Position numbers and translations under genes: made by a program
Part shown: one piece after another, positions 9,541-51,866 of the stretch
Layout of the letters: every line of letters starts with the position of its first letter
Position numbering within the stretch: the first letter of the stretch is position 1
Notes under the pieces: model-generated
What the model was told of the DNA's origin: nothing
What the model saw: only the letters and a program-made list of their open reading frames with translations
The model's database searches: none
NCBI RefSeq assembly: GCF_014839805.1
Contig: NC_051116.1
Span: forward strand, 5,127,556 to 5,191,555
DNA: 64,000 nt
Source of the DNA: Manduca sexta
Taxonomy: Eukaryota; Arthropoda; Insecta; Lepidoptera; Sphingidae
Reading direction: 5' to 3'

Positions 9541-9618
<78 letters not shown>

Positions 9619-34360: not shown

Positions 34361-37300
34361 ATGATCGGAAGACCAAGATGTAGGGAATGGACGCCTTTAT
34401 CCACCCAGCAGTTGCGTCTAAGGAGTCTTATACAGGTAAGGTTCCCGCCAAAAATTTCCTTAGCCTATTAACAGTTTATAAACAAAATGATACAGTCGTG
34501 ATTGTATCGCATGACTATTACTGTAGATTGGCTGTCACACTTCGCTGACGATGTATGTTCGATTGTTTGCATTTTGATCTTGTTTGCGTCATTGTCAGTA
34601 TTTTACGAGTACCGAAAAGCATCATTATTGGCTATTAGCACCCATTGTTTTTAGCAGATTCTAAAGTTTTCATTGTTATTATAATTACTGCCAGGTCCTA
34701 GTATGAGTCAAAAAGTTAAAATTACATTGTGACATCTACAGAAATATTCTGCATAGGTATATATATATTTTTGACCCTTTTTGTTTGTGAGCCGAGGTAT
34801 AAGGGTCGACTTACAAACACAGAGGATGTTCAGGTTTTTTATTGTCTTATTTACAAAAAAAAAATATCAAGGATAACCAAGCTTCCCTGACCTAACGGCA
34901 GTGTCAGTCTGGCCAACTATCCTCATCTTCCTCAAAGAGAGGTTAATAGAATAGGCACACAATTTCAAGCCTGTTATATGACATTTGTAACTGTAACAGG
35001 CCTGTCATAGCTCGATCCAAGCTTCTACAACTGCACTCATGCATGTCCCAATACTTAGTAGTTAGTTCTGCTCTGGCCATCTTTGCACCCTTCAAGTCTG
35101 CTCCTTAGGAAGCTGGCTGGAATAACCAGGCAAAGGGTTAGTTAGCGTTGGCACCACCAGGGTTTGAACATTGAGTTCTTGGCTTAGTTATTAGAATAGT
35201 TCAACATCGACTTCTGTTGGACTAAGGTTTGATTGCTCCACCATACTGGTAAAATTCGCTGTCAAAATTCCTTTGTATAGATTATTTTTAACACATACAA
35301 CTCACCCACTGTATCACTTGAAACCAAAGCTACTAAGATTACATAAAGTGGGAATTAGGAAGATTGTCATACAAAATTTTTGCACTCATGCGATGGTTAC
35401 TCAGTCTACCGTGAAATAGCAAAACACCAATGTAAAATACTTCATATTTCTTCCATATTGTGATGTGGACATTTTGAATGGCCATAGCATATTTTCTGTA
35501 AATATGTTATTTTTGTATTAATATCAAATGACACTGCAATATCTTGTCACATTTAAATAATAAAATGACTTATTACCAAACGGTAATAACTTTTGGAGCA
35601 CAAATTTAGTCCTGGTGTCCAGTCTATAACTAACTACAGTAGAAACCGGTTATAACGATTCCGGTTATAGCGACGCACCGTTTTTAACGACTAAATAGTA
35701 AGGTCATTTTAAATGAATGTATATAAAAAGCCTATCGTTTATAACGACTATTGCATATAGCGTCCAAATTCGATGATCCCCCGATGGCGTTATAACCGGT
35801 TTTCACTGTATACTGTTCACCGTCTGCTTGAAACTGTACTTATTCAATTGTTATTCTGATGCAATAAATAATAAATAAATGTTATCTCGAACTATCTATA
35901 TTCCGCCTTTGTTTAAAAAGATCTGTGGGTTATTGTTATTTCATAGTAGGTTCCGATATCATTGACATAAAACATTTTTTCTCATTCTGGTATAGGTAGC
36001 CTATTATTCACTTATTTATTTTCAAAATGCCGCAGTTTCATAGTTGTATTACAGTATGTAGTGTAGTGTAGTGTGTACTGTAGTGCTGAGATGGGGGATT
36101 AGAGCCCCGGGTTGGCAAGTGTTATTGAGTTTTTCTGCTCAGTATCAGGTCAGAGTCTGGAATGTGCCCAATATGATGATAGGCTCGCTTCTTATAATAT
36201 TATGTGTGGGTATTATTTAAAACATTAATCCTGCACACATTAAGTGTTGTTAGGCCAAAATCATAAGAAAAAACTGGTTATAAGATAAATCATATAGCGT
36301 TTTGCTTATCAAATATGTTAATTCATAATGTATTTCCGAAAAAAAAATAAATATAGACACTTTATCTTATAAATTTGCATTAATTTTAATAATAAGTTCC
36401 ACCTTGACTTTGAGGGATAGCATGTTTATGTTTTATATGACATTAATTATGCTAATGCCAATGGTTGCCAATAAGCACTGAGCGATAGCAGCAGAAAGGC
36501 CTTATCTCAACAATACAAAAAACATTATGCTATTGTTTAATACCCATCGAACACTTAAAGAGTTATGGAAAAACAAAATTAGGATATCTATAATGTGTTA
36601 AATTTATTTTCATGCCATGTATGAGAGTAACACAATACCATGACTTGATGGTGTTTCACACTACCCATTTTTTGTAACTACATCACCAAAGTATTAATTA
36701 CAAAGCATCATCCCGCTTCATCATCCATAGACTAGGAATCAGGCCCAGAATTTGTCAAGCCAAAACCTATATAAGCTCCTCAAGCAAAAAAGTAATATGT
36801 TTCTTGGCTTACATAATAATATAATAATAATAATAATAAAGCTTTATTTATTCCATACTTAGTTCAAGTGGCTTACATACTGCTCTATAAATATAGTCGT
36901 TATAATATTTCATATACATCATATTATTTTTTGTTATCATATCATTAGGGCTTGCACGGGCACCCCCCCGTTGTGATACCTACTATAGTGTGTAGATTGC
37001 AGTTGCACTTCCCTAAAAATTATCTTGACGCCGCTCATGTTTGTTACCGTAAAATGTAAATATTTGAAAAATATGTTCCAAATATAAAACTGGTACCAAA
37101 AATGTTAACATTTTAAGTTAGCTTAACATTTTAAAATTGTAAATTAATTCAATATAGTTTTTACTGGATAGATATTATATCTGATAATCTTTATTCGTTA
37201 TTACCTACGAAAAATATGTTACAAATATAAAACTGGCACCAAACATGTTAACATTTTAAGTTAAAGTAACATTTTTAAATTGTAAATAAATTCAATGTAG

Positions 37301-40300
37301 TTTTTACAAGATATATATTATGTCTATTTTGCCGCTAAGCAGCAGTGTGTAGTCACTGTTGTGTTCTGGTTTGAAGAATATTGTAGCCAGTGTAACTAAT
37401 GAAAAAAAAAAAAACAGTAAATAGTCTCTTCTAATAATTCTTCTAGTTAAAAATCTTCAGTTACTATTATTATTAACTAATACATATTTAATTGCACTAT
37501 CTTATGGCCATCATCTGGCCATTTGTTTAAAATGAGACCTCCAACTGATACAGGGTTACAAACAAGGGAAGCTAATACTTTATCTATAGGAAGGAGCAAC
37601 ACAGTGCTTCTGCAGAAGAATATCTATCGAATAGGGCCAGCAATCTATAATAAACTTAGTCCAACTATTAAAGATGTGGAACAGATTAATTTGTTTAAAA
37701 GTAAACTTAAGAATTTCCTTATTAATAAATGCTTTTACTCATTTGATGATTTCTTCAAATCATAATAAATTTAATCTTGTCAATGTAATATAATAAATAT
37801 AATGTGATTATATAATAATTCATGTTATGTAATACTTCTTTCCTTATATTTAATAATTATTTACGGCTAGAAAAAAAAATGCACACCCAGTTAGGGTAGA
37901 ATATGGCGAGACTTCATTTTATAACACCTATAAATGTACATGTACTGTATTCAGCAAATAAATTATTTGAATTTGAATCTTTATTTTGAATAACATCCAT
38001 GACGGATATGACTTCACCAAACACATAAATAAAATCCACTACTCAACATAGGTCTCTAAAGATTTCCGAACGGACCTGTCAAATACGATCATATAATTTA
38101 TTCTATTAATTCCATATGTTACTACATATGGAATTAATAGAATAAATTATATATGATGATAAATAATAATGTAACGTTTTTTGGTTCTGAGATTTTTTGT
38201 GTGTTTTCTCGTCATTTAACTCCAATTCACACATAACATTTGCATGTCAATGAGATAAGACAAATTAATAGAATTTAAATTTTGAAATCTGTCTGATATT
38301 TCCTACTTTTTGTGTTTATTACAGTAATTATTATTAAAGTTCAAAGTTTCACGTTAATTAAGTGCACTGGGTATTAAGTATTAACAAAAACAAATAAGTT
38401 GTTCTATAATGGTCGTTTTCAATAAACGATTCCAATCTCAATCTTTAATCCGATCCCAAGAATAGACCAATCAAAATAAGTAATTTCTAATAATGTCAAA
38501 AAAAAACTTTGTATTTATTGGTCCATTTTTGCGATGGATTAGAAAAAACGTTTGAATTCAAATCACCGAAATTGGACACTTAAATAATTCGAAACACGTG
38601 AGTCCAAAAAGGTGTAAGTAAACATTTTTATCGTTGAATAAAATTATAGATAAAAAAATATCTGAAAATGAAATGATGAACCGTGAACTGAACACGTGAG
38701 ACTGGTTTTTTATTAAGTCTAAAATAAATTATTTTCTATAGCTTAATGGAAAAAGGGAATTGAGAATAAAGTGATCCTCTTTATTTGTATGTATCGAGTT
38801 TCCATTACTCAGAAACTGTAGATTCTCATTTGTAATTAATATCTAGTACTATGGTCTATAGAATCGCCTTTTTGACCTAGTATTGCCTCCGCGACCTAGA
38901 GACAACGAATATACGCTGTGGATACGAATATTATGGGTTCGGTTGTCAAGGCAGTACAAATTTGGGTATGTTTTTCTAACACGATATGGCCAGGATGGCA
39001 TGGGCTAATGGACTGTTTTTGTATGGGTCCCTGCAGTCCACACCGGGGAAAACCTGCGAATGAAATACTGGAATCCTCAGTTTAGCGACTGCAGTGACCC
39101 GGAGGAAAGTTGGGAGGGCAGTGTGGGGGAACGATAGAAACCCTTTTAGGATGGGTGCAGGGGGGAAGAAAGGAAAATGTACAAAAGGCCTTTATAGGCC
39201 TCAATTTGAATTGGCAACCATGAGGTATACATATTTAACTGTATGCTTAGGGCAGTGACAAATGTCCCCTGTGCATGGGCGCGCATTCAGTGACAGAGCG
39301 CCCAAGAATTACCTCAAGGGGGGGGGGGCGTATAAACTAAGTCAAATTCGCTCATCTATATAGAAAATTTTATATGGGCACCATATCGAGCACACAATTT
39401 TAAATTGTACCAAGATGGCATTCATTTCGCAGTGATGTAACGTTGGTAATAATAGCACTTGTAAATAGATAAAAGTTCGTTTGAATGACTCGGCTTATCT
39501 GTTGCATATAAATAATCATTGCATTTATATTAACAAGTAATGAGATAACCTGCAAAAAGTTAGACTTTAGTCAATGTATTTGTGTATACTTTTCAGAAGA
39601 GAATGACCAGGGTCTGAAATAAGGTTTGCTTGAGGATATTTAAATCCGCTCAAATAGGGCCCAGCGTATATAAGATGTAAAACCCGCCATAGTGTCCAAC
39701 TTAAGTCTTCAAAAGTAGCTGAGCAAGTCCAAAACTTCAAAATTATTTTACAAGATGATATAAGTTCAGGGGCCCTATTCCATCTATAGGGGCGAATCCG
39801 TCTTTTTGCAATTGCGGACTTTCTAACCGAAAGATAGCTTTGATAGCCGTATAGGTAAATAGGGGATTTTTTACTCCCTGACTTATACAGCTATCGAAGC
39901 TGTCCTCCCCTCCATAGACGAAATAGGGCCCATTGACCTTAATTTTGAAATAAAGTAGTCCCTCTCAAGTTTATTTTAGTGATGAAATAACTAACTGATA
40001 TGGAGGCGAAAGTTTAAAGGCGATTTGAAATTTTGCATTTGTTCAGCTACTCTTGTAGCTGAAAGTACGTTCCGGGATCAGCCTATGTACATGAGGTTTT
40101 AAACAAGCCGGCATAATAATATCGACTGGGGAGCGGTCATTTGGCATCAAGCAATACTTCATCGATGATCGAAATTTTACCATCAAGTGCACAGAAGTTA
40201 CTTTACCGTGCTTCTAAAAATGTGTTTTTCAGATCGTCGGCTACAACATTCGACCGCCCGAATGGTGTACGTCCACTTGCAGCTTCTATCTGACGCTGCA

Positions 40301-43300
40301 TCACACCACCATGTGCGCCCCTTTCTATACCAGTGAGAGGATATGCTCGCCGCATCCTAAGTGGAAGGAGATTGACTCAGGTGAGAATAAATAAAATCTT
40401 ACGTTTATTCTCGATCATTCTAGACTGAAATATCGTAGGGCAAAGATTACTGACAGTCAACTTATTTTATTTTTATTGCATACTATATTTTGTCAGGGTT
40501 GTGGTCTGTGTAAGCCCTTTCCGGCAATAAAACTGACCGTTGTTTTTCCGGTACAAAATAATTGTAACAAATATCTTTATAAAACTATAAAAATAAGCCA
40601 AATTATACAAAACAATCCATTCTGTAATAGCATGGAAATAGGTTAAAAAAATATATTGGTACGAGTGTGTGTTCGTGTAACAGGAATATGACGCTATCGC
40701 GCTCGCACGCGCATACGTAATACCAGTGACGTCATAGTAGACGTTATCAACCATTTGACAGGCACTTTTACCTCTTTTATTAAATGGTACTAGTTGTCGC
40801 CCTTTTGCGAGTATTCGTTTGACTTTAAACTTGAATTTAAAATATGCCTTGGACCGGTTTTTCAATTATTAAATATTTTTTTTTCAATCGTAACCAAACT
40901 TACGTTTACATTTTAATATGTTTATAAATAAACAACGATATTGACATTCGTGTCAGTGCCCGTGAATTCATTTCTATGTAAAATGTACGTTAGGGCGAGA
41001 TTGGCGTAGCATATTATTATGAATCTATTGTTACACAGTATATATTTATAAGCTGCCTATATATTAAACACGCGGTGTCTGACATTCAGTGGACGTCCTC
41101 ATTTAAATTTGGTAGCGATAAAGACAAATGCGGGTTTTCAATTTTCATCTAATTAATGTAATTGAGAAAGTTTGTTTTCGAATAAATTAATTATAATTAT
41201 AGCATTTACGCGCAACTCTACCCGCATAAATGTCTAGTGCCAAATTAAATGAGTCAGTGTGCATTTTTCTAGTAAAAGCCTATTTATTAATCCCATAATA
41301 GTTAGACTTGGCCTATCTGACAGACATCATCATCATCAACCTACAGCTGTCCACTGCTGAACATAGGCCTCCCTTAAAGCGCGCCACGCTGTTCGGTCCT
41401 CCGCTCTCCTCATCGAGCGTCCACCGGCGATCCTACGAATATCGTCGGACCAGCGGGTCGGAGGTCGTCCTACGCTACGCTTACCGAGACGCGGTCTCCA
41501 CTCTAGGACTCGTCTGCTCCAGCGGCCATCGGTCCTACGACAGATATGGCCAGCCCACTGCCACTTCAGCTTGCTTATTTTCCGAGCTATATCCGTTACT
41601 TTGGTTCTCTCACGGATATCCTCATTTCTGATTTTATCCGCGAGAGAGACACCTAGCATAGCTCGCTTAAATTTATGGACTAGCCTTACCGTCAGTGTCC
41701 ACGTCTCGGCACCATACGTCATCACCGGTAGGACGCAATGCTTGAAGACTTTCGTCTTCAAGCATTGTGGAATCGTCGACGTAAAGACTTGACGAAGCCT
41801 GCCGAATGCTGCCCAGGCCAACCGAATCCTCCTATCAGCCTCCCTCTCAAAGTTGTGCCGGCCTAGTTGGATAGTCTGGCCAAGGTAGACGTAATCCTGC
41901 ACAACCTCGAGGGGGATGCCGTCGACAGATATCGGTCCCGGCATGACATGTTCATTGAACATGACCTTGGTTTTGTTCAAGTTCATGCCGAGAGCGACCC
42001 GCCGAGAGGACCCACCTAGGTCGTTCAGCATTCCGCTAAGCTCTTCCAGCGTCTCTGCAAATATTACTATATCGTCTGCGAAACGAAGATGAGAGATGCG
42101 CTCTCCATTGACGTTGACGCCTCGTGCAGTCCAGTGCAGAGTCTTGAAGACGTCCTCCATCGCGTTGGTGAACACTTTTGGAGATATTATATCTCCCTGT
42201 CTCACCCCGCGACAGACAAATTTCATTAAAATCCCTTCAGTCGTTTATGTGTTTAAGACACGTTCAAACACTTTCACGAACCACATTTATATTGATCATG
42301 TTAAATTAAACTGTATTAATTTAAACACACACACACGCATACACGCACATCATGCCTATATTCCCGAAGGAGCAGCCAGAAGTAGATTTAGGGCACCCAC
42401 ATTTCACCCATGATGTGATAGGCATAGGCGCTGGGAGCCCTACCCAGAAATAAATCACATAAAATATAAGTGACTTAATAAATCTGCAACAATGGGAACC
42501 ATCGACTACAGAGGTTTTTAGATAAATCATTTTCAAAAACTCGCGCGATTTGAATTGGAAAAAAACCTTAATATCATGTAGTATAGAACGTAGGAGCAGA
42601 TGCGCCTTCCTAAAACTTATCTTGGCGGCGCCCATGGCGATAGGGGTAAATCTGTCGCCATATCGAGCACAAATTTCAGACTCCGTGCTGATACTGAGTA
42701 GAAAAACCCTATCACATTATTCATTTATCAATAAGGATAAACCAACTGTCCAGAGGTGTGAACGCGTCATAAATTCCAGATATGCGTATGACTCACGCAC
42801 TATGCGTTGAATTTGTGTCAGTTGTTATCGTTTGAACATTCACGTCATGTCAACTGTGGGAGTATTTCAGTAATATGTCAATAACAGATAAACATAGAAT
42901 AGAAATTACCTCAATAACATTAGTGTATTTTATCTCAATAATACTGTGGGAAAGTTTGTGATGATGTTTGACTGTTTAGAAGTAAATGCGAAAACCTTAG
43001 TGTTTAAACATCCCCGTAACTATAGGGAAATATAATTTACTGACAGAAAAAAAAAATCAAACATACCAAAAACTTGAAAACATTAGTATTTATTTCTGTT
43101 ACAGAAATAACTCAAAGCATGTCATCAACCAACGTAGTTATAAGGATATGGTGTCACATACTCCATCCTAATGAAGACAGCAATGTGCCTCAAAACACTG
43201 TGATACAAACGTGGGGAGTCTACTTCAGTGGTCTCCGGTATATAGGGGCTAACCTCGCTTCAAACTTCACTTCAGACTGCTTCAAAAGCAACACTCTCGT

Positions 43301-46300
43301 ATTTCAAATGCACGGAGGCTACTTCTGTTCTTACAAAAGCTTGAAATTAGATATAATACCTGCTGAGAATGAGATGGAACATGGATCTCTATCGTCAGAT
43401 TCATCAGGCCGCACGATATCCAAAAATATTGAAGCGAAATTCATTTCCACTCAAAGACTTAAGGAGGCGCGGTCGATCTCCCCAAGCAAATATATAAGAA
43501 AGGCTGATAAAGAATATTCGAAGAGCCACAGCCCAGTAGAAAGAGGGTTTCAGCAAAATTTTCCAACCTTACGTCCAGCAAGCAGTCTGAATATTAAGGA
43601 GAGACACACTGGCAGTGTGGACAGACTTAACGAAGCAAAAGAACACATTTACGAGCACTCGCCAGATCACATGGATGTAAAAGAATTTACCGACGTTAAT
43701 TACGATAGTTTATCGAAAAACACGTCCCAAGAAGAGCTATCTAACAGTAAAATAGATTTAAGTGAGACGGCAGAAAGCTATGATTTAAGAAACGAAGACG
43801 GAATGCCTAAGTTTAGGTATCTGGCTTTGAACTTTTTAAAATCAGAAATACGACCGAGTTACACCGCCGCGAAGCTGCAGAAACTCCACTTACTACAGTA
43901 TTCTATAAAGAAAAGACAGGTGAAAATAAAAAATATTTATTTGCAATTAAAAAACACGTGAATGTTTTGGATCAGTCTCAAAATATATTTAGTTACAAAG
44001 ATAGTTAATTAAAGCACCTAGGAACCGAACTGTTTACGATGCAAATCATATTTAACTATTCAGATTTTATCTTAATTATATATTTTGATGGACTTTTTTA
44101 TCTAGATAAATCAGTGACTATTAACATCTGCGAGGTTTGATTTAAATGTTTTTCATATTAATACTATTGAACATTTATCTAAAATTGGATTTTGAATACC
44201 TGTTATAGTTAATGAAGATACAACATTTCACATTGTAACAGACGCTCTACTGGTGGTAGGTCTCTCATATGTGAGAGTCCGCCTGTGTAGGTACCACCGC
44301 AATGTCTATTTCTACCAAAACGTAGCAGTGTGTAGTCACGTTGTTTTCCAGTTTGAAGGACATTGTAGCCAGTGTAATTACTGGACATAATGAGACTTAA
44401 CATCTCATGTCATAGGATGGCGAGCGCAGTGGAATATCAAACAATACTTTGTTATTCAAGGTGTTGGATGGTGTTTCTACTGTTATGGGCGGTCGTATCG
44501 CTTACCATCGTGCGAACGGCAAGCTCGTCTAGTCATTCAAAGTAATAAAAAAAAACGCGCCATTTATATTATAGGAAGCAGTACAAGAAATAAAAGAAAG
44601 GATATACAAAAAGTCAGCACTGACTGATGGATGGCCGCAAGATGAAACAGAGAAATTGAAATTCAAGAGTAGATCACAAAGGAATCTTTTTTCACCCGAA
44701 GATGAAGGTTCGGATGGAGACAAATCTTCATCTCAAAGTGATCTGAGCGTCAAAAATGGTAAAGTTAAGGATGGTAAGCCCGTATCTAATGGACCAAGAT
44801 TGACTTTGAAGTTAAACGATCTGCTATCTTTTAAGGTAAGTTTCGACTCATAATGTGTGTATTTGTACCAACTTTTAAAATGCCAATTTTAATTTTAATG
44901 CATTTTATTACACTGATGACATTATTTTCTAATGTATAGCGTCTTTTCAATGCTTCATGAATATTGTCATTTTCTGTAATTCTTTGTCGATACTATAAAC
45001 TGAATTCAACTTTATGTCATTAAAGATCGATTATTAGGAGATTTTATCGATTATCATTTACTTTTTATCGATATTTTTATACGGAGCCCAATATATGTAA
45101 ATTCTTAAGAAATTACCTTCAAAAACATTCTGTTCTTACAATTGACAGACGAAACCATCCCCCTTCCAACGTGCCGAACACGTGAGACTGACGAAACAGT
45201 TGGAGATATTGCGGTTCAAACGTATCATATTATCGGACGAGCGAGACAGCAAACTGGCGAACATACGACGTCTGAAAGAGAGGCACGCTAAGCTGAATGA
45301 AGAGAATCAAGATGTTGGTAAGTGTTTATATTGTTTCCATTATAATTTGGGTACGTTAGTTTTCCATATAGTTTTTGTTAAGTTTGAGACTGTGTCACCA
45401 TATGTCAATCAGACGGTAGTTATGAGGCTCCTGCTCTCACACCCTCCACTACAACTTCTGTAAGCCAGGAACAGCAGTGCCACGCATTTTATGACATAGA
45501 GCGGTAAAACTCGGTGAGTCTCAGGGAGCACTAATTAGTCTTAATCCGCAACAAATCAAATGGAAAGATAGGGAGCTGTTAGAAATATTAAATTGTCCAC
45601 TTTCCACCATAGTAAAGTGGGAGACAAACTGATGAACCAAAGAAGCAATTGCTGCCAGCAAGCCAGTTGTACAGCACCACAGATAAATAATAATGAAATG
45701 GTCTTATCACATGAGATGTTAGATTTGATTTCAATATTAGGAATGGCAAAAACGCCGGGAAGCACGAACATTCTGTGTTATCGACAAGGTTCATGTAGTA
45801 TACAACCCGGGGTGTTATTTGCATACTGTGTGGCGCATGTGTGGTATAATGTGTGTGTAGCGTGAGTGTGGGTGACATGTGTGTGTGGCGCGAGTGTAGT
45901 ATCATGTGTGCGCGGTGCGGGCGGTGGGTGTGCAGGGTCGGAGCTGATGCAGGGCCTGCGCGCGGTGTCGCGCGGGGGCGAGGCGGCGCGGGAGGTGCGC
46001 GCGGCAGGCGCGGCGCTGTGTGTGTGTGTGGCGCGAGTGTAGTATCATGTGTGCGCGGTGCGGGCGGTGGGTGTGCAGGGTCGGAGCTGATGCAGGGCCT
46101 GCGCGCGGTGTCGCGCGGGGGCGAGGCGGCGCGGGAGGTGCGCGCGGCGGGCGCGGCGCTGTGTGTGTGTGTGGCGCGAGTGTAGTATCATGTGTGCGCG
46201 GTGCGGGCGGTGGGTGTGCAGGGTCGGAGCTGATGCAGGGCCTGCGCGCGGTGTCGCGCGGGGGCGAGAGCAGCGCGGGAGGTGCGCGCGGCGGGCGCGG

Positions 46301-49300
46301 CGCTGTGTGTGTGTGTGGCGCGAGTGTAGTATCATGTGTGCGCGGTGCGGGCGGTGGGTGTGCAGGGTCGGAGCTGATGCAGGGCCTGCGCGCGGTGTCG
46401 CGCGGGGGCGAGGCGGCGCGGGAGGTGCGCGCGGCGGGCGCGGCGCTGTGTGTGTGTGTGGCGCGAGTGTAGTATCATGTGTGCGCGGTGCGGGCGGTGG
46501 GTGTGCAGGGTCGGAGCTGATGCAGGGCCTGCGCGCGGTGTCGCGCGGGGGCGAGGCAGCGCGGGAGGTGCGCGCGGCGGGCGCGGCGCTGTGTGTGTGT
46601 GTGGCGCGAGTGTAGTATCATGTGTGCGCGGTGCGGGCGGTGGGTGTGCAGGGTCGGAGCTGATGCAGGGCCTGCGCGCGGTGTCGCGCGGGGGCGAGAG
46701 CGGCGCGGGAGGTGCGCGCGGCGGGCGCGGCGCTGTGTGTGTGTGTGGCGCGAGTGTAGTATCATGTGTGCGCGGTGCGGGCGGTGGGTGTGCAGGGTCG
46801 GAGCTGATGCAGGGCCTGCGCGCGGTGTCGCGCGGGCGCGAGCCCGCGCGGGAGGTGCGCGCGGCGGGCGCGGCGCTGTGTGTGTGTGTGGCGCGAGTGT
46901 AGTATCATGTGTGCGCGGTGCGGGCGGTGGGTGTGCAGGGTCGGAGCTGATGCAGGGCCTGCGCGCGGTGTCGCGCGGGGGCGAGGCGGCGCGGGAGGTG
47001 CGCGCGGCGGGCGCGGCGCTGTGTGTGTGTGTGGCGCGAGTGTAGTATCATGTGTGCGCGGTGCGGGCGGTGGGTGTGCAGGGTCGGAGCTGATGCAGGG
47101 CCTGCGCGCGGTGTCGCGCGGGGGCGAGAGCAGCGCGGGAGGTGCGCGCAGCAGGCGCGGCGCTGTGTGTGTGTGTGGCGCGAGTGTAGTATCATGTGTG
47201 CGCGGTGCGGGCGGTGGGTGTGCAGGGTCGGAGCTGATGCAGGGCCTGCGCGCGGTGTCGCGCGGGGGCGAGGCGGCGCGGGAGGTGCGCGCGGCGGGCG
47301 CGGCGCTGCGCGCGCGGGCGGCGGCTGCGCACGCGGCGCTGGCGGTGCGGCGCGCTGAACTCCTGCACCAGCTGCACCATATATTCCAGATTGATCAGGT
47401 TAGTGTTATTGCTCATGATATCTGTTATCATCAGACTGCCCCAGTGGCGTAGTTGTGTTATAGTACTGAGGTCTGGTTCAATCCCGAAGTCAAGTAGTGA
47501 TATTCGGTTTCTCTACTTAGCATTAGCCTGGAAAAAAAACATTTTATTTTTGTAGATAGACCAGCATACCTGGACGATTATCGGAGTACCTCTACCCATC
47601 TGCGGTGACGATAGTCCTCGAGGTAACAGTCCCGTCAGTGACTCAGTGGCGGCGGGGTTCGTAGCCCAAGCGACATGTCTCTCAGCCGCAATGCTCAACC
47701 AGCCCATGCGGTATAAGATTACGTTGCTCGGCTCGGCTAGCAAGATCTTGGATATAACCCCAGATCTGCCGGACCCTAAGTGAGTATTTATTTTTGTTAC
47801 TATTGGCATTTTAGTAATTGACCTCTAAAAAAACACTTAACAATTTTAATGCTTTTTCCGGTTCGGAGGACCAAAACTTACTAGGACATTTTTGGTCCTC
47901 CGAACACGAAAATTTAAAAAAAAGTGGTGATCATTTTCATTAGTAAATAAATTGATTGCATGAAGAACGATCAAAGAATCCCCGCAAATGCTATTAAGAA
48001 TCATTAAATCTATGATTAAACGTAAGCTAATGTAATTTTGGAATTCTCATCTCCAAAAAGGTAAAAAGTGTTTATTATGCAAATTTGATTTATGGATTAA
48101 AGTAACATTAATGTTCAGTATCAATTTAAAAGAAGAAAAATAGGTTTATTGTCACATCTGCTGCAATACATAATACAAGTACAGCGCTACACGCCTACGA
48201 TGTAACAAAAAGGTGGCCATTTAAGAACAGACTTTTAATAATGAAGTAGGTTGACAACAAACAAAACAGCGATAGCCTGGTTTGTTGTGGAACGGACTGT
48301 CGGACGAATGTCCGCAGGTTCAAATCCCAAGGACACACATCTCTGACTTTTCTAAGATTATGTGTGTACTCTTTCTGAATTATCGCTTGTTTTAACGGTG
48401 AAGGAAAACATCGTGAGGAAACCTGCATACCTGAGAAATTCTCTATACGAATTTTGAAGGTGTGTGAAGTCTTCCAATCCGCACTAGGCCAGCGTGGTGG
48501 ACTAAGGCCAATCTCTCAGTAGTAGAGGATGCCTGCGTCCAGCAGTGGGACAGTGTATAATACAGGGCTGATATTGAGTTAACAACTGCCTTTTTTATTT
48601 CCCAGTATACCGCTATTCGCTCGTGGCGGCGACACAACGCTATTCCGCTACGCATTGTTCCTGCTGAACAAGTGTATCGCCCAGCTGATGTGGGGCCGCG
48701 GGCTGCCCGTCAAGGACATAAGGCCAACGCTAGCCAATCTGCAACGATTACTTATCACGCCTAATAATTTGTGAGTATTTTTCGCCTTTATCTGCGTCCT
48801 TCTGTCAAAATTAGTGATGTGCCGGATCGTTAACAAACTATATCCGCTGATACGGATACGGATACGGAGGCGGATATTTTGGTGTCATGATCCGCGAATA
48901 CGGATGCGGATACGGATTCTAACGTTCTTACTCAATCGATGTCAGTGCGGTGTCGGTTTGATAACTTGCTACGTTAAATGTTTGCGATATAAAAATGACA
49001 AATGTTTTATTTTAAAAATTAAATATTAATCTGAATCGAATTTAATAGTTTTCAACTGCTACCTAATCACCTACATACTGGGTAATTTTAAAATAAAATA
49101 ATCCTGTATAGAATTTCATTTATGTATTGAAAATTAAAAAGGTAATAGATCCGTTAAAGATCCGCCGATAAAGTGCACACTTTATCGGCGGATAAAGTGT
49201 GTACAGTTTGTGCGGATAAGTTCACACTTTCTACACTTTCCATCAGGTGAGATGGAAGACAAACGCCTATTCCTTTGCAACTGTATAAAAAAAAAGTAAC

Positions 49301-51866
49301 GGATACGGATACGTATATATCTTATCCTTCAGATATCCGCGGATACACATCGGATACGGATATCCGACACATCACTAATCAAAATATATAAAGTATTTTG
49401 GCAATGGCAATTGACCCCACTGCTGATGGTAAAAACGGGGTGGGGTGAAAATAGAGCGTCTGACCAAAAATTATCACTCGCCAATCGACACAATTATGCT
49501 GGCCTTTTTGAACCGATTATACACGGATTGATCCCGGAACGCGGCATACTTACGTGGGCCATTATGACGGGTTTTTAACACCTTGTATACATACCCCAAG
49601 GCAATTCTTCGCTCGGTCTCCACACCGAATGCACGCCCATGCACGGGGGGACATAAGTCGCGGCCCTAGGCACACAGTTAAGTGTGTATACCTCATGGTT
49701 GCCAATTCACATTGAGACCTATAAAAGCTAACGAACATTTCCTGGGTTTTTCCCCTCCTCCCATCCTAAGAGTTTTCCTTATCCTTTCCCCACATTTCCT
49801 TCCCAGCTATTCCCTCCCGACTTTCCTCCAGCGCCCTACAGCCGCTAAGCCGTAGAATTCCAGTATCCCATGCTCAGATTTCCCCTATTGTTGACTGCGA
49901 GGTCCGATAACCAAAAAAAAAAAACACCTTGTATATGGTGAAAGCCATCCGTTCAAATACTAAATAATTCGCACTCTTAATAAAATAACGCCCCTTTACA
50001 AAATTGCCAATTTGTGGAAATCGTCAAATAACCGATTCCTGTTTGCGACCTTTTAGTTTTTTCCCTTTTTTTCATGCTATAGGTTTCATTTACTACCTAT
50101 CTTTAATAAGTTCCATTTTATAGCAACTTCAAAAAGAAGGTAGCAAACAAAAAATAGTTTTCCGACGACTGCCACAAATTAACAATTTTGAAATAGGTCA
50201 TTATTTTATTAAGAGCGCGAATTATATCTTAACTATCTCCAAACCAGAGGCGCGTGGAATTTTATTTGTTAATTTTTACACTTGGCTTGCCGCAATGCAT
50301 CCCAAATAACTCTTTGCTAACTATATTTTTATATTACAGAACGGAGACTTCAAAACTGTTCGGCACTTATCCGTGGAGTGTGGATAGTCAGTGTCCGCGG
50401 ACGCAGTCTCTGCGGAGCCTCGTGCCCTCCGAGCGAGGGAAATACAGGCAGTTCAACAGGTTTAAGGTAATTTATATACACTATGGGAATATTTATCGAA
50501 TACTAGCTGACCCGACAGACGTTGTCCCGTCTTAACTATGAATTTGCAGCGCGTTCTGTCAATCGCTGACAGTTATTTCAAACAATTGACAATTATATGA
50601 AATTAATATTTTCGTTAATTTTTCTAATTTTCCGCGCAATTTTTTGTTTTTTTTTTTCTATTATAAGAACCTTCTCCTGACAATAACAAATATAACAAAA
50701 AAAAAAATAGTGAAGACGAGACGAGCTTGCCGTTCGCCTGATGGTAAGCGACACGACCGCCCATAAACAGTAGAAACATCAAAACCTTGAATTACAAAGT
50801 ATTGTTTGGTATTCCACTGCGCTCGCCATCCTGAGACATGAGATGTTAAGTCTTGTTGTGTCCAGTAGTTATCCTGGCTACAATGTCCTTCAAACCGGAA
50901 CACAACAGTGACTATACACTGCTGCTTGGCGGCAGAAATAGACATTGCGGTGGTACCTACCCAGGCGGACTGTCACATATTAAAGTCCTGCCACCAGTGA
51001 AGTTATCGATTCTTGGGCAGTCAATAAGAATGTGCTCCTGATGCAATATTATAATATGTTGACAGGATTCTGTGGACGGACAGTCTCCTCAGTCTGCCAT
51101 GAACCTGAAGAAGCACAGGCACTCCAGGAGTGTCGGTAGCTACCATGATGACCAGGTAAAACCTTGAAACTAAAATTATGTGAAATTGAAATACCTAAAA
51201 TAAAAATAAGTCGTAAATTAAAAAAAAAAAATGTCTGTGAGAAGTCAGTTGCGCAATTATCAACTAATAAAAAATAATAATCGATAACATCGATAAATTC
51301 CCCCACAGGAACTGCCGACACTGGACGCGTCAACAACATCGATAATGGGCAGCGAATCGAACATCTACAACATGAAACTAACGCAAGAAGACACAGAAAC
51401 ATTAAAAACACACAATTCGGACTCCGCCATATTGACTCTTAGTGATGCGAAAACTACCGAACATGTCGATACAGAAGTAAGCTTCATTATCGGCGAAGAT
51501 GAGAAGTTAGTCCGAATATCGAGTAATAACGAAGACGAAATGACCTGTTCGACATGTTTGGACGAAAACGTGAAACGGATATGTTCGCAAATCACGGATT
51601 ACTGTTCGACAAACATCGATATACATAAAGGGTTCGATATCGTGAAACACATGGAGAATGATATCGATATATCGAAGTTTATGGAGAGACGTCCGAGTGA
51701 TATAGAGGGTGCGGATGTGTGCTCGACTTGTGAGATGAATAGAGATGGCGTGTGTGATATAGGGTGTGCCAAAAACGTGACGGAAGTTATAGTGATACCA
51801 AGTGCGGAAGCCATCTTGGATACCGGTCAGGAGGTGTGCGATAATGTCGACGAAGAAAGCTCTTAG
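34361..51866 (+). CDS. UVRAG: UVRAG / Vps38-like subunit of the Vps34 PI3-kinase complex (11 exons, complete)
   Basis: Exons are 34361-34435, 40233-40380, 43105-43919, 44575-44835, 45149-45317, 47226-47398, 47556-47779, 48606-48770, 50340-50466, 51066-51155 and 51309-51866; they join to 934 residues. Exons 1-3 encode a C2-type N-terminus (RLRSLIQIVGYNIRPP, then SERICSPHPKWKEID). The rest of exon 3 and exon 4 are low-complexity and S/K/E-rich. Exons 5-6 form the coiled coil (HVRLTKQLEILRFKR, then an A/R-rich helix). Exons 7-9 match the BARA-like Vps38 region, including FRYALFLLNKCIAQLMWGRG. The tail is disordered. UVRAG joins Vps34, Vps15 and Beclin 1 (Atg6) in complex II, which makes PI3P on endosomes and aids autophagosome maturation. 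The last exon contains several C-x-x-C pairs. Exon 6 is preceded by nine tandem partial copies of itself. Confidence 0.92.
35360..35615 (+). repeat. Repeat family I, copy 1
   Basis: CTCATGCGATGGTTACTCAG, CTACCGTGAAATAGCAAAAC and GGTAATAACTTTTGGAGCAC. The same blocks recur in order at 61740-61975. Confidence 0.6.
35637..35808. mobile_element. pogo/Tigger-like MITE, 172 bp, TA target duplication
   Basis: Left end CAGTAGAAACCGGTTATAACG and right end CGTTATAACCGGTTTTCACTG are inverted repeats, flanked by TA on both sides (35635-35636, 35809-35810). CAGT termini with a TA duplication are typical of pogo/Tigger nonautonomous elements. Located in UVRAG intron 1. Confidence 0.85.
36060..36240 (+). 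repeat. SINE family C, diverged
   Basis: AGAGCCCCGGGTTGGCAAG, TTTTTCTGCTCAGTATCAGG and ATATGATGATAGGCTCGC. Confidence 0.58.
37067..37325 (+). repeat. Tandem duplication of about 143 nt in UVRAG intron 1
   Basis: AATATAAAACTGGTACCAAA and AATATAAAACTGGCACCAAA start two related units offset by about 143 nt. Both continue with GTTAACATTTTAAGTTA and a TTCAAT(A/G)TAGTTTTTAC end. Confidence 0.7.
37325..37400 (-). repeat. Family B fragment
   Basis: Only GCCGCTAAGCAGCAGTGTGT to the CATTGTAGCCAGTGTAACTA-like block is kept. Confidence 0.55.
37440..37982 (+). mobile_element. LINE 3' remnant (CR1/Jockey-like reverse transcriptase C-terminus)
   Basis: The 80-codon frame 37523-37765 ends with IYRIGPAIYNKLSPTIKDV and FKSKLKNFLINKCFYSFDDF, the characteristic C-terminus of CR1/Jockey-like LINE proteins. 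It is followed by an AT-rich 3' UTR ending in AATAAATTATTTGAATTTGAATC, a TTTGAA-type tail. Located in UVRAG intron 1. Confidence 0.7.
38088..38157. repeat. Long AT-rich inverted repeat (hairpin)
   Basis: The left arm 38088-38118 and right arm 38125-38157 are reverse complements except for a 2-nt indel. Both contain TTTATTCTATTAATTCCATA or its complement. The loop is TTACTA. Confidence 0.85.
38985..39335 (+). repeat. Interspersed repeat family F in UVRAG intron 1
   Basis: CACACCGGGGAAAACCTGCG, AGCGACTGCAGTGACCCGGA, AACCATGAGGTATACA and CCCCTGTGCATGGGCGCGC, then a G run (39329-39338). An inverted partner lies at 49600-49915. Confidence 0.6.
39770..39931. mobile_element. Short TIR element (MITE-like)
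   Basis: GGGCCCTATTCCATCTATAG at the left pairs with CATAGACGAAATAGGGCCC at the right, allowing a few mismatches. Further inner pairing is seen at CCGTATAGG/ACTTATACAG and ATAGCTTTGATAG/CTATCGAAGCT. Target duplication is unclear. Located in UVRAG intron 1. Confidence 0.6.
41322..42232 (-). mobile_element. RTE-type LINE, 5'-truncated, reverse transcriptase 3' half
   Basis: A minus-strand ORF of 296 residues (41336-42226) contains RQGDIISPKVF, the catalytic FADDIV motif, GAETWTL and the C-terminal RPPTRWSDDIRR block typical of RTE-clade reverse transcriptases. The element ends in a short (ATG/ATC)n tail at about 41322-41335 and is cut off 5' at about 42232. It lies antisense in UVRAG intron 2. 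The N-terminal endonuclease is missing, so the copy is dead, though the remaining frame is intact and it may be fairly young. Confidence 0.88.
42628..42715 (-). repeat. SINE family C fragment
   Basis: TCGCCATATCGAGCACAAAT and GTGCTGATACTGAGTAGAAA. Lies in UVRAG intron 2. Confidence 0.55.
44240..44555 (-). repeat. Interspersed repeat family B abutting UVRAG exon 4
   Basis: From TACTGGTGGTAGGTCTCTCA to TCATTCAAAGTAATAAAAAA. The acceptor of exon 4 (44575) is only about 20 nt beyond its end. Confidence 0.72.
45430..45640 (+). repeat. Repeat family G in UVRAG intron 5
   Basis: CTCACACCCTCCACTACAAC, GCCAGGAACAGCAGTGCCAC and TTGTCCACTTTCCACCATAG. Lies just upstream of the exon 6 array. Confidence 0.6.
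45878..47308 (+). repeat. Tandem array of the UVRAG intron 5/exon 6 junction, ten units of 143-144 nt
   Basis: The acceptor GTGTGCAG followed by GGTCGGAGCTG recurs at 45936, 46079, 46222, 46366, 46509, 46652, 46796, 46939, 47082 and 47226. Each unit has about 60 nt of intron end (TG run, GCGCGAGTGTAGTATCATG, G-rich tract, AG) plus the first 83 nt of exon 6. Only the last unit runs on into the rest of the exon. Copies are nearly identical. The units starting at 46222, 46652 and 47082 are 144 nt because of GCGAGAGC, so a three-unit, 430-nt higher-order period is visible. The array is strongly GC-rich in an AT-rich locus. It is a coding-derived minisatellite, most likely grown by unequal exchange or slippage. 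Confidence 0.95.
47435..47530 (+). repeat. SINE family C, head only
   Basis: GCCCCAGTGGCGTAGTTGTG, TGAGGTCTGGTTCAATCCC and TAGTGATATTCGGTTTCTC. Occupies most of short UVRAG intron 6. Confidence 0.6.
48266..48577 (+). repeat. tRNA-derived SINE family A next to a UVRAG exon
   Basis: A box TAGCCTGGTTTG and B box GGTTCAAATCCCAAGG; tail CAGGGCTGATATTGAG. Its end is under 30 nt from the acceptor of UVRAG exon 8 (48606). Confidence 0.78.
48812..49377. mobile_element. hAT-like MITE with GGATAC-rich interior
   Basis: Termini TAGTGATGTGCCGGAT and ATCCGACACATCACTA are inverted repeats. Flanks GTCAAAAT and ATCAAAAT match at 7 of 8 positions, fitting an 8-bp hAT duplication. Subterminal GGATACGGATACGGATAC arrays occur at both ends. 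Located in UVRAG intron 8. Confidence 0.8.
49425..49590 (+). repeat. Family E copy in UVRAG intron 8
   Basis: CCAATCGACACAATTATGCT, CCGGAACGCGGCATACTTAC and GGGTTTTTAACACCTTG. Confidence 0.55.
49600..49915 (-). repeat. Interspersed repeat family F in UVRAG intron 8
   Basis: ACGCCCATGCACGGGGGGAC, GTATACCTCATGGTTGCC and TTCCTCCAGCGCCCTACAGC are the reverse complement of the family F copy at 38985. Confidence 0.6.
50503..50709 (+). repeat. Family D, 3'-truncated by a family B element
   Basis: Starts CTAGCTGACCCGACAGACGT and stops after AAAAAAATAGTGAA, where a family B copy begins. Confidence 0.62.
50714..50998 (+). repeat. Interspersed repeat family B in UVRAG intron 9
   Basis: From AAGACGAGACGAGCTTGCCG to AAGTCCTGCCACCAGTG. 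Its left end coincides with the truncation point of a family D element. Confidence 0.72.

Follow-up and report, generated by a model that had tools for sequence, protein, structure and literature searches.

A mirage-type minisatellite at the intron 5/exon 6 boundary of the predicted UVRAG gene of Manduca sexta, with donor-side arrays in three further genes

How is a coding exon recognized when its splice boundary is present ten times in succession? Choice by the spliceosome among identical sites has mostly been studied with engineered duplications. A natural case is found in a stretch of Manduca sexta DNA of 64,000 nucleotides (nt), which we call the window and whose coordinates are used throughout for UVRAG: the boundary between intron 5 and exon 6 of this gene, as assigned by comparison with homologues, forms a tandem array far beyond chance expectation. 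The term "mirage" has been applied in amphioxus to minisatellite-like duplications of intron-exon boundaries (PMC3087553), and its anatomical features, namely tandem units, a boundary with its splice signal and one authentic copy, are all found here. Our preferred explanation, in which we have considerable confidence, is that the array is a mirage minisatellite, that its tenth acceptor is mainly used, and that gene conversion is eroding exon 6.

Tandem Repeats Finder (TRF), run on the window, reported a single strong array at the locus, with a period of 143 nt, 10.0 copies, 98% matches and a score of 2772 (Table 1). The exact boundary string GGGTGTGCAG/GGTCGGAGCTG (the slash marks the splice junction here and below) is present ten times within it, and successive acceptors are spaced by 143, 143 and 144 nt in a pattern that occurs three times over. 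Each unit joins 60 nt from the end of intron 5, including the AG acceptor, to the start of exon 6, of which 84 nt are carried by units 3, 6 and 9 and 83 nt by the remaining units. The 50 nt preceding the AG are the same in all ten copies, no difference is seen among the nine 60-nt spacers that separate the units, and every difference between units is confined to the exon-derived part. Copy 10 alone extends into the rest of exon 6 (47309-47398) and then into GTTAGT. The sequence-only reading had proposed ten units of 143-144 nt, each made of the intron end, an AG and 83 nt from the start of exon 6, with only the last continuing into the complete exon; TRF and the exact string copies bear this out almost to the base, and the proposed coordinates hold.

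An insertion at the boundary of a dispersed satellite or a transposon-borne repeat would share the tandem form with these data and nothing beyond it. Such an origin is already contradicted by the unit itself, which is built from UVRAG's own intron and exon, and was rejected after a search of the species' own genome (470,002,661 bases in 4056 contigs) with 8 nt of intron plus exon 6 as the query. This search gave at least 34 matches, 10 of them the array copies and 24 at other GC-rich places with 72-82% identity. Among the matches listed there was one full-length match to the exon 6 query and no further close copy of the unit, and we give an inserted repeat practically no chance of being correct.

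The assignment of the host gene to UVRAG draws on several comparisons. The product predicted from exons 5-7 matches the UVRAG chains 7bl1_AAA and 9rx5_D, from structures that we take to be of the human protein, with an E value of about 6e-9 over query residues 13-182 of 189; with these exons alone, the Pfam family PF10186 (ATG14) scores 19.8 bits (E 0.00045) against a cut-off of 33.2 bits. An 859-residue query from exons 3-11 retrieved 57 homologues in a search that scored only the 7988 candidates sharing most words; several are named UVRAG, the named ones being mostly lepidopteran. The gene and the numbering of exons 5 and 6 that had been proposed are upheld. One homologue, P0045 (Manduca sexta O3G_MSEX003206), is 100% identical across the 48% of the query that it covers, and its N-terminus locates exons 1 and 2. 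At its end, exon 5 is read through into intron 5 (ENQDVGKCLYCF...) and the model breaks off before the array. The C-terminal half of the Manduca UVRAG model was not found, the six hits (two from Leptosia nina and four unnamed) having at most 81% identity. The array may itself explain this truncated public model, because a read across the junction would fit exactly in ten places if it stopped within about 40 nt of the acceptor, and in several if it stopped within 83 nt. No annotated RNA families were found in the window at gathering scores.

Orthologues identify the acceptor of the tenth copy as the authentic one. Fifty of the 57 homologue rows span the exon 5/6 junction (the count leaves out P0045, the distant rows P0054-P0058, five in number, and P0052, which stops at the junction). 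No indel occurs there in 44 of the 50; the remaining six (P0007, P0009, P0017, P0022, P0034 and P0047) carry an indel of two or four residues. A conserved ENQD, followed by x-x-x-E-L, fixes the junction at 47225/47226, and the orthologues thus confirm the acceptor ending at 47225. In P0034, P0017, P0007 and P0022 there are two extra residues (EW or EC) at this junction, a pattern that a tandem acceptor 6 nt apart would produce.

When exon 5 was joined to each acceptor in turn, the frame was open for acceptor 10 and decoy 9 only; with decoys 1-8 it was closed by a stop, at codon 92 or codon 140 of the stretch examined. The expectation that most decoys would run into a TAG or shift the frame holds, as a premature stop, for eight of the nine and fails for decoy 9, which is in frame. 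Being the sole decoy open through exon 7, with a unit 9 of 144 nt, decoy 9 invites the reading that it is a used alternative acceptor, giving a regular isoform of UVRAG that is longer by 48 residues. We consider this improbable, since the assembly may be in error in the GC-rich tract that holds the added base of units 3, 6 and 9, and since the insert, with its many Gly, Ala, Ser, Cys and Val residues, is by inspection only not coiled-coil-like.

Taken by itself, the acceptor is a poor one. Positions -20 to -4 are 65% G and 35% pyrimidine, and no YTNAY motif occurs within 100 nt before the acceptor. By a matrix built on eight sites, and indicative only, the authentic acceptor has the lowest score among nine tested UVRAG acceptors and is outscored by 189 of 381 unannotated AGs in the region. 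RNA structure was rejected as the selector, since folding of three stretches from one unit did not surpass that of shuffled sequences (z of 0.57, 0.46 and 0.76), and no quadruplexes of four GGG runs with loops of up to 12 occur in the window; a two-tier quadruplex motif overlies the acceptor. The predicted exon measures 173 nt with acceptor 10, as against 317-1463 nt with the decoys, and acceptor 10 is expected to be mainly used because it alone has the donor of exon 6 at a distance of no more than 173 nt (exon definition).

It had also been claimed that no unit contains a good 5' splice site. The best candidates within the unit, GAG/GTGCGC, GCG/GTGGGT and CAT/GTGTGC, match 6 of the 9 positions of MAG/GTRAGT, which favours the claim; but the eight real UVRAG donors match 6-9 of 9, and the weakest of them, that of exon 8, is no better than those in the unit, so the claim is fairly safe only, and cryptic use of an in-unit donor may occur. 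Competition of the decoys with the real acceptor, such that the yield of functional UVRAG depends on a number of units that differs from one individual to another, is compatible with our explanation and would draw on the identity of the ten acceptors over their last 50 nt, on the position of nine of them nearer to the exon 5 donor, on the premature stops that eight of the nine decoys would give, and on the varying length of amphioxus mirages (PMC3087553). We nevertheless find it unlikely, since the acceptors are weak without exon context and the amphioxus mirages are reported not to interfere with splicing (PMC3087553, PMC3902484).

The coding sequence of exon 6 is eroded in Manduca. This comparison was made for nine UVRAG exons, UVRAG being the one covered among the four array genes, in an alignment of 49 rows, Manduca and, out of the 57 homologues, 48 (P0002-P0050 except P0045; P0051-P0058 omitted; 45-49 rows per exon). 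The mean identity of the Manduca exon 6 is 0.506, against 0.658 for the rest (standard deviation 0.048), which is the lowest of 49, and exon 6 is the sole exon of the nine in which Manduca is an outlier, the other eight being unremarkable. Its share of Gly, Ala, Arg and Pro is the highest of 49 (0.50 against 0.24, standard deviation 0.04). Where a column is conserved to 85% or more, Manduca retains the residue in 22 of 30 cases in exon 6, compared with 396 of 407 in the other eight exons (Fisher p = 8.5e-6). The 83 repeated nt have a GC content of 0.84, the 45 nt that follow have 0.91, and the final 45 nt of the exon have 0.49; by codon position, GC is 0.93, 0.69 and 0.98 over the initial 126 nt of coding sequence. 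The erosion is the outcome that GC-biased gene conversion would have in an array that recombines.

Growth of the array could have begun with an initial junction in a TG-rich tract, followed by repeated tandem duplication of the boundary through unequal exchange or replication slippage, which would have left nine boundary copies within intron 5; the weakly repeated TG-rich stretch before unit 1 is a possible seed. The differences between units sit in GC-rich, error-prone tracts and are possibly of technical origin, and no history is drawn from them. Three G-to-C changes in unit 7 (46796-46878) convert a near-palindrome to a perfect 9-bp hairpin, as against 6 bp in the reference, which resembles template switching and may reflect either that process or an assembly error. 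G-to-A changes in units 1, 3, 5 and 9 all fall at third codon positions, a bias that is not significant, as 9 of 18 CpG G's occupy third positions anyway. A higher-order repeat of 143, 143 and 144 nt, three times over, exists in the assembly but was rejected: its placing has p = 0.036 (3/84), the base on which it turns is in a GC-rich tract, and the pattern may be base-calling noise.

Arrays crossing donor sites were found elsewhere in the genome. The 24 matches outside UVRAG represent 23 places, and 10 kb around 20 of these was examined (199,820 bases in total), with TRF filtered for periods of at least 30 and arrays of at least 120 bases; the 20 places were chosen by likeness to a GC-rich query, and no genome-wide rate follows. 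Three GC-rich arrays, with units mostly of 131-158 nt, cross donor sites there, in RALGAPB (E 4.6e-11 for a match that extends across the join), WDR19 (E 9.1e-35 and 1.3e-15) and GTF2H1 (E 3.8e-12). RALGAPB has 30 exact copies of AACACCGACCT/GTGCGTGC, with 24 of 29 spacings at 152-158 nt and the others at 137-146 nt, apart from one of 306 nt. In WDR19, G/GTTAGTATATACC is found 15 times at intervals of 131-134 nt; this array lies about 3 kb from the match leading there and was therefore not chosen for its own sequence. In GTF2H1, ATGGCGC/GTGAGTACACACAG is found 22 times, for the most part at intervals of 139 nt and once each at 107, 130 and 141 nt. In the alignments of WDR19 and GTF2H1, the intact first copy is joined to the following exon in the order of the known protein, and no decoy donor has an open frame over the tested stretch (0 of 29 in RALGAPB, 0 of 14 in WDR19 and 0 of 21 in GTF2H1). 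Variation is concentrated in the exon-derived parts in RALGAPB (28 units), with 4.06 mismatched cells per 100 there against 0.14 outside them, and in GTF2H1 (21 units), with 2.69 against 0.09; in WDR19 (14 units), differences occur only in and beside a G run.

These data hint that boundary amplification is a recurrent process within a single genome and may push coding exons toward GC-rich codons. With slightly less than even confidence, we propose that UVRAG, WDR19, RALGAPB and GTF2H1, all conserved genes, belong to a genome-wide class of GC-rich exon-edge arrays in Manduca, with units of about 130-160 bp at an acceptor or a donor and tens of decoys, tolerated because exon definition would pick the copy at the array end, and with GC-biased conversion rewriting the protein encoded by the exon.

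Table 1. Coordinates of the UVRAG features (window positions) and of the donor-side arrays in other genes
Feature	Position	Strand	Basis or remarks
Mirage minisatellite	45878..47308	+	10 units of 143/144 nt (143,143,144 x3)
TG-rich stretch before unit 1	45827..45877	+	weakly repeated, 27-nt period; TRF row 45827-45910
Authentic exon 6 acceptor	47224..47225	+	reading frame, orthologue-conserved junction, collinearity with UVRAG structure chains
Decoy acceptor 1	45934..45935	+	in-frame stop
Decoy acceptors 2-8	ends 46078, 46221, 46365, 46508, 46651, 46795, 46938	+	in-frame stop each
Decoy acceptor 9	47080..47081	+	+144 nt in frame, no stop, +48 residues
UVRAG exon 1 (ATG start)	34361..34435	+	P0045 N-terminus match
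UVRAG exon 2	40233..40380	+	P0045 match; cag/ATCGTC ... TCAG/gtgag
UVRAG exon 3	43105..43919	+	open frame, splice signals, P0045, orthologues
UVRAG exon 4	44575..44835	+	open frame, splice signals, P0045, orthologues
UVRAG exon 5	45149..45317	+	donor TTG/GTAAGT
UVRAG intron 5	45318..47225	+	given authentic acceptor; with nine decoy acceptors
UVRAG exon 6	47226..47398	+	donor CAG/GTTAGT; 77% GC
UVRAG exon 7	47556..47779	+	
UVRAG exon 8	48606..48770	+	
UVRAG exon 9	50340..50466	+	
UVRAG exon 10	51066..51155	+	
UVRAG exon 11	51309..51866	+	with stop codon
RALGAPB donor array	L015:4603-9347 (G000:C8)		TRF 31.1 units of 154 nt; exon 82% GC
WDR19 donor array	L029/L016, G000:C22:15150370-15152429		15 donor copies
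GTF2H1 donor array	L022:1933-4973 (G000:C6)	-	22 copies; exon 86% GC

Other repeats were seen in the same material. At L026:5062-5342 a two-copy, coding-like 147-nt repeat with 83% matches, both copies of which end in TTCTACAAG/GTACC, is perhaps an older boundary or exon duplication. A 123-nt tandem repeat of 41-42% GC with a similar consensus is present at L011:8104-8717, L020:393-1007, L023:3476-3721 and L024:5377-5622, the L023 copy in the opposite orientation (compared by eye), and is probably a dispersed satellite or part of a transposon. Positions 9545-9617 of the window are a perfect (AT)36 microsatellite.

That the true UVRAG locus holds one or two copies, the array being an assembly artefact, strikes us as very doubtful. 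Tandem arrays of 140 bp are not an artefact that we know from nanopore sequencing, and the public model P0045, which may or may not derive from another assembly, likewise breaks off in intron 5. The location of the WDR19 differences at a G run, and of those in RALGAPB and GTF2H1 almost wholly in GC-rich exon-derived parts, is nonetheless what residual base-calling error would give, and the assembly, if it is JHU_Msex_v1.0, was made from nanopore R9.4.1 reads with Illumina polishing, 3D-DNA giving 4057 scaffolds (PMC8022704). At the yield of 19.47 Gb and the read N50 of 9,156 b given for JHU_Msex_v1.0, however, reads should span the 1.4 kb of the array many times (PMC8022704).

Under our preferred explanation, the spliceosome would mainly take acceptor 10 by exon definition, and the weak upstream copies would be at most low-level cryptic sites, giving mostly premature-stop transcripts and, from decoy 9, a possible in-frame form with 48 more residues. 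Recombination of the array would expose the real exon 6 to GC-biased conversion, with coding erosion as the outcome. Several points weigh against this explanation. Within intron 5, 45 of 114 unannotated AGs outscore the authentic acceptor, and sequence alone would not pick it. P0045, the only Manduca protein found, lacks the exon 5-6 splice. GC content peaks beyond the repeat (0.91 versus 0.84), so that GC may have risen before the array: either conversion tracts spill over, or GC rose first and favoured amplification. The evidence comes from the genomic DNA of one assembly, one individual and one haplotype, and exon definition as the selector is taken from known splicing rules.

Manduca thus offers a natural system in a model insect, with 10 acceptors in UVRAG and with donors present 15 times in WDR19, 30 times in RALGAPB and 22 times in GTF2H1. 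Splice sites were duplicated in cis in globin genes in the laboratory in the 1980s; those constructs likewise placed identical competing sites in one transcript, whereas the UVRAG array is natural, tenfold and part of an endogenous gene. In the potato RdRp gene, a tandem duplication across an intron-exon boundary made a new intron (PMC4974935). There, as in UVRAG, an intron end and an exon start were duplicated and the upstream exonic part turned intronic, but the potato duplication supplied a donor; the UVRAG unit has no clearly good donor, and therefore no new intron is expected. A prawn lectin family (PMC7536079) was set aside as a precedent, its repeats lying inside one exon, which is a different thing, and no arthropod precedent was found among the open-licence papers listed, as judged by titles and the starts of abstracts.

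The closest counterparts are the amphioxus mirages. In BflGb6, a unit of 150-160 bp takes in an intron's 3' end together with a 5' portion of exon 2; two haplotypes carry 6 and 3 such units, whose identity is 81-100%, and BflGb9 has a duplicated 3' exon boundary (PMC3087553); further mirages affect Adh3, troponin C and PGBD5 (PMC3902484). For the globin mirages, reverse-transcription PCR suggested no interference with regular splicing (PMC3087553), a view echoed in PMC3902484. The UVRAG array is like BflGb6 in joining an intron end to an exon start, in its similar unit length and in having several units beside one authentic copy, and acceptor and donor sides are both affected in amphioxus as in Manduca. 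In contrast to amphioxus, the host is an insect, with 10-30 copies as against 6 and 3 units in BflGb6; the UVRAG units have 98% matches, are very GC-rich and adjoin an eroded coding exon, and they are known here from DNA alone. Mirage-type arrays were thus already known from amphioxus, and the UVRAG array is a new instance, one of at least four genes so affected in Manduca. If these genes do form a class, Manduca, like amphioxus, would be a natural testing ground for the choice among identical splice sites.

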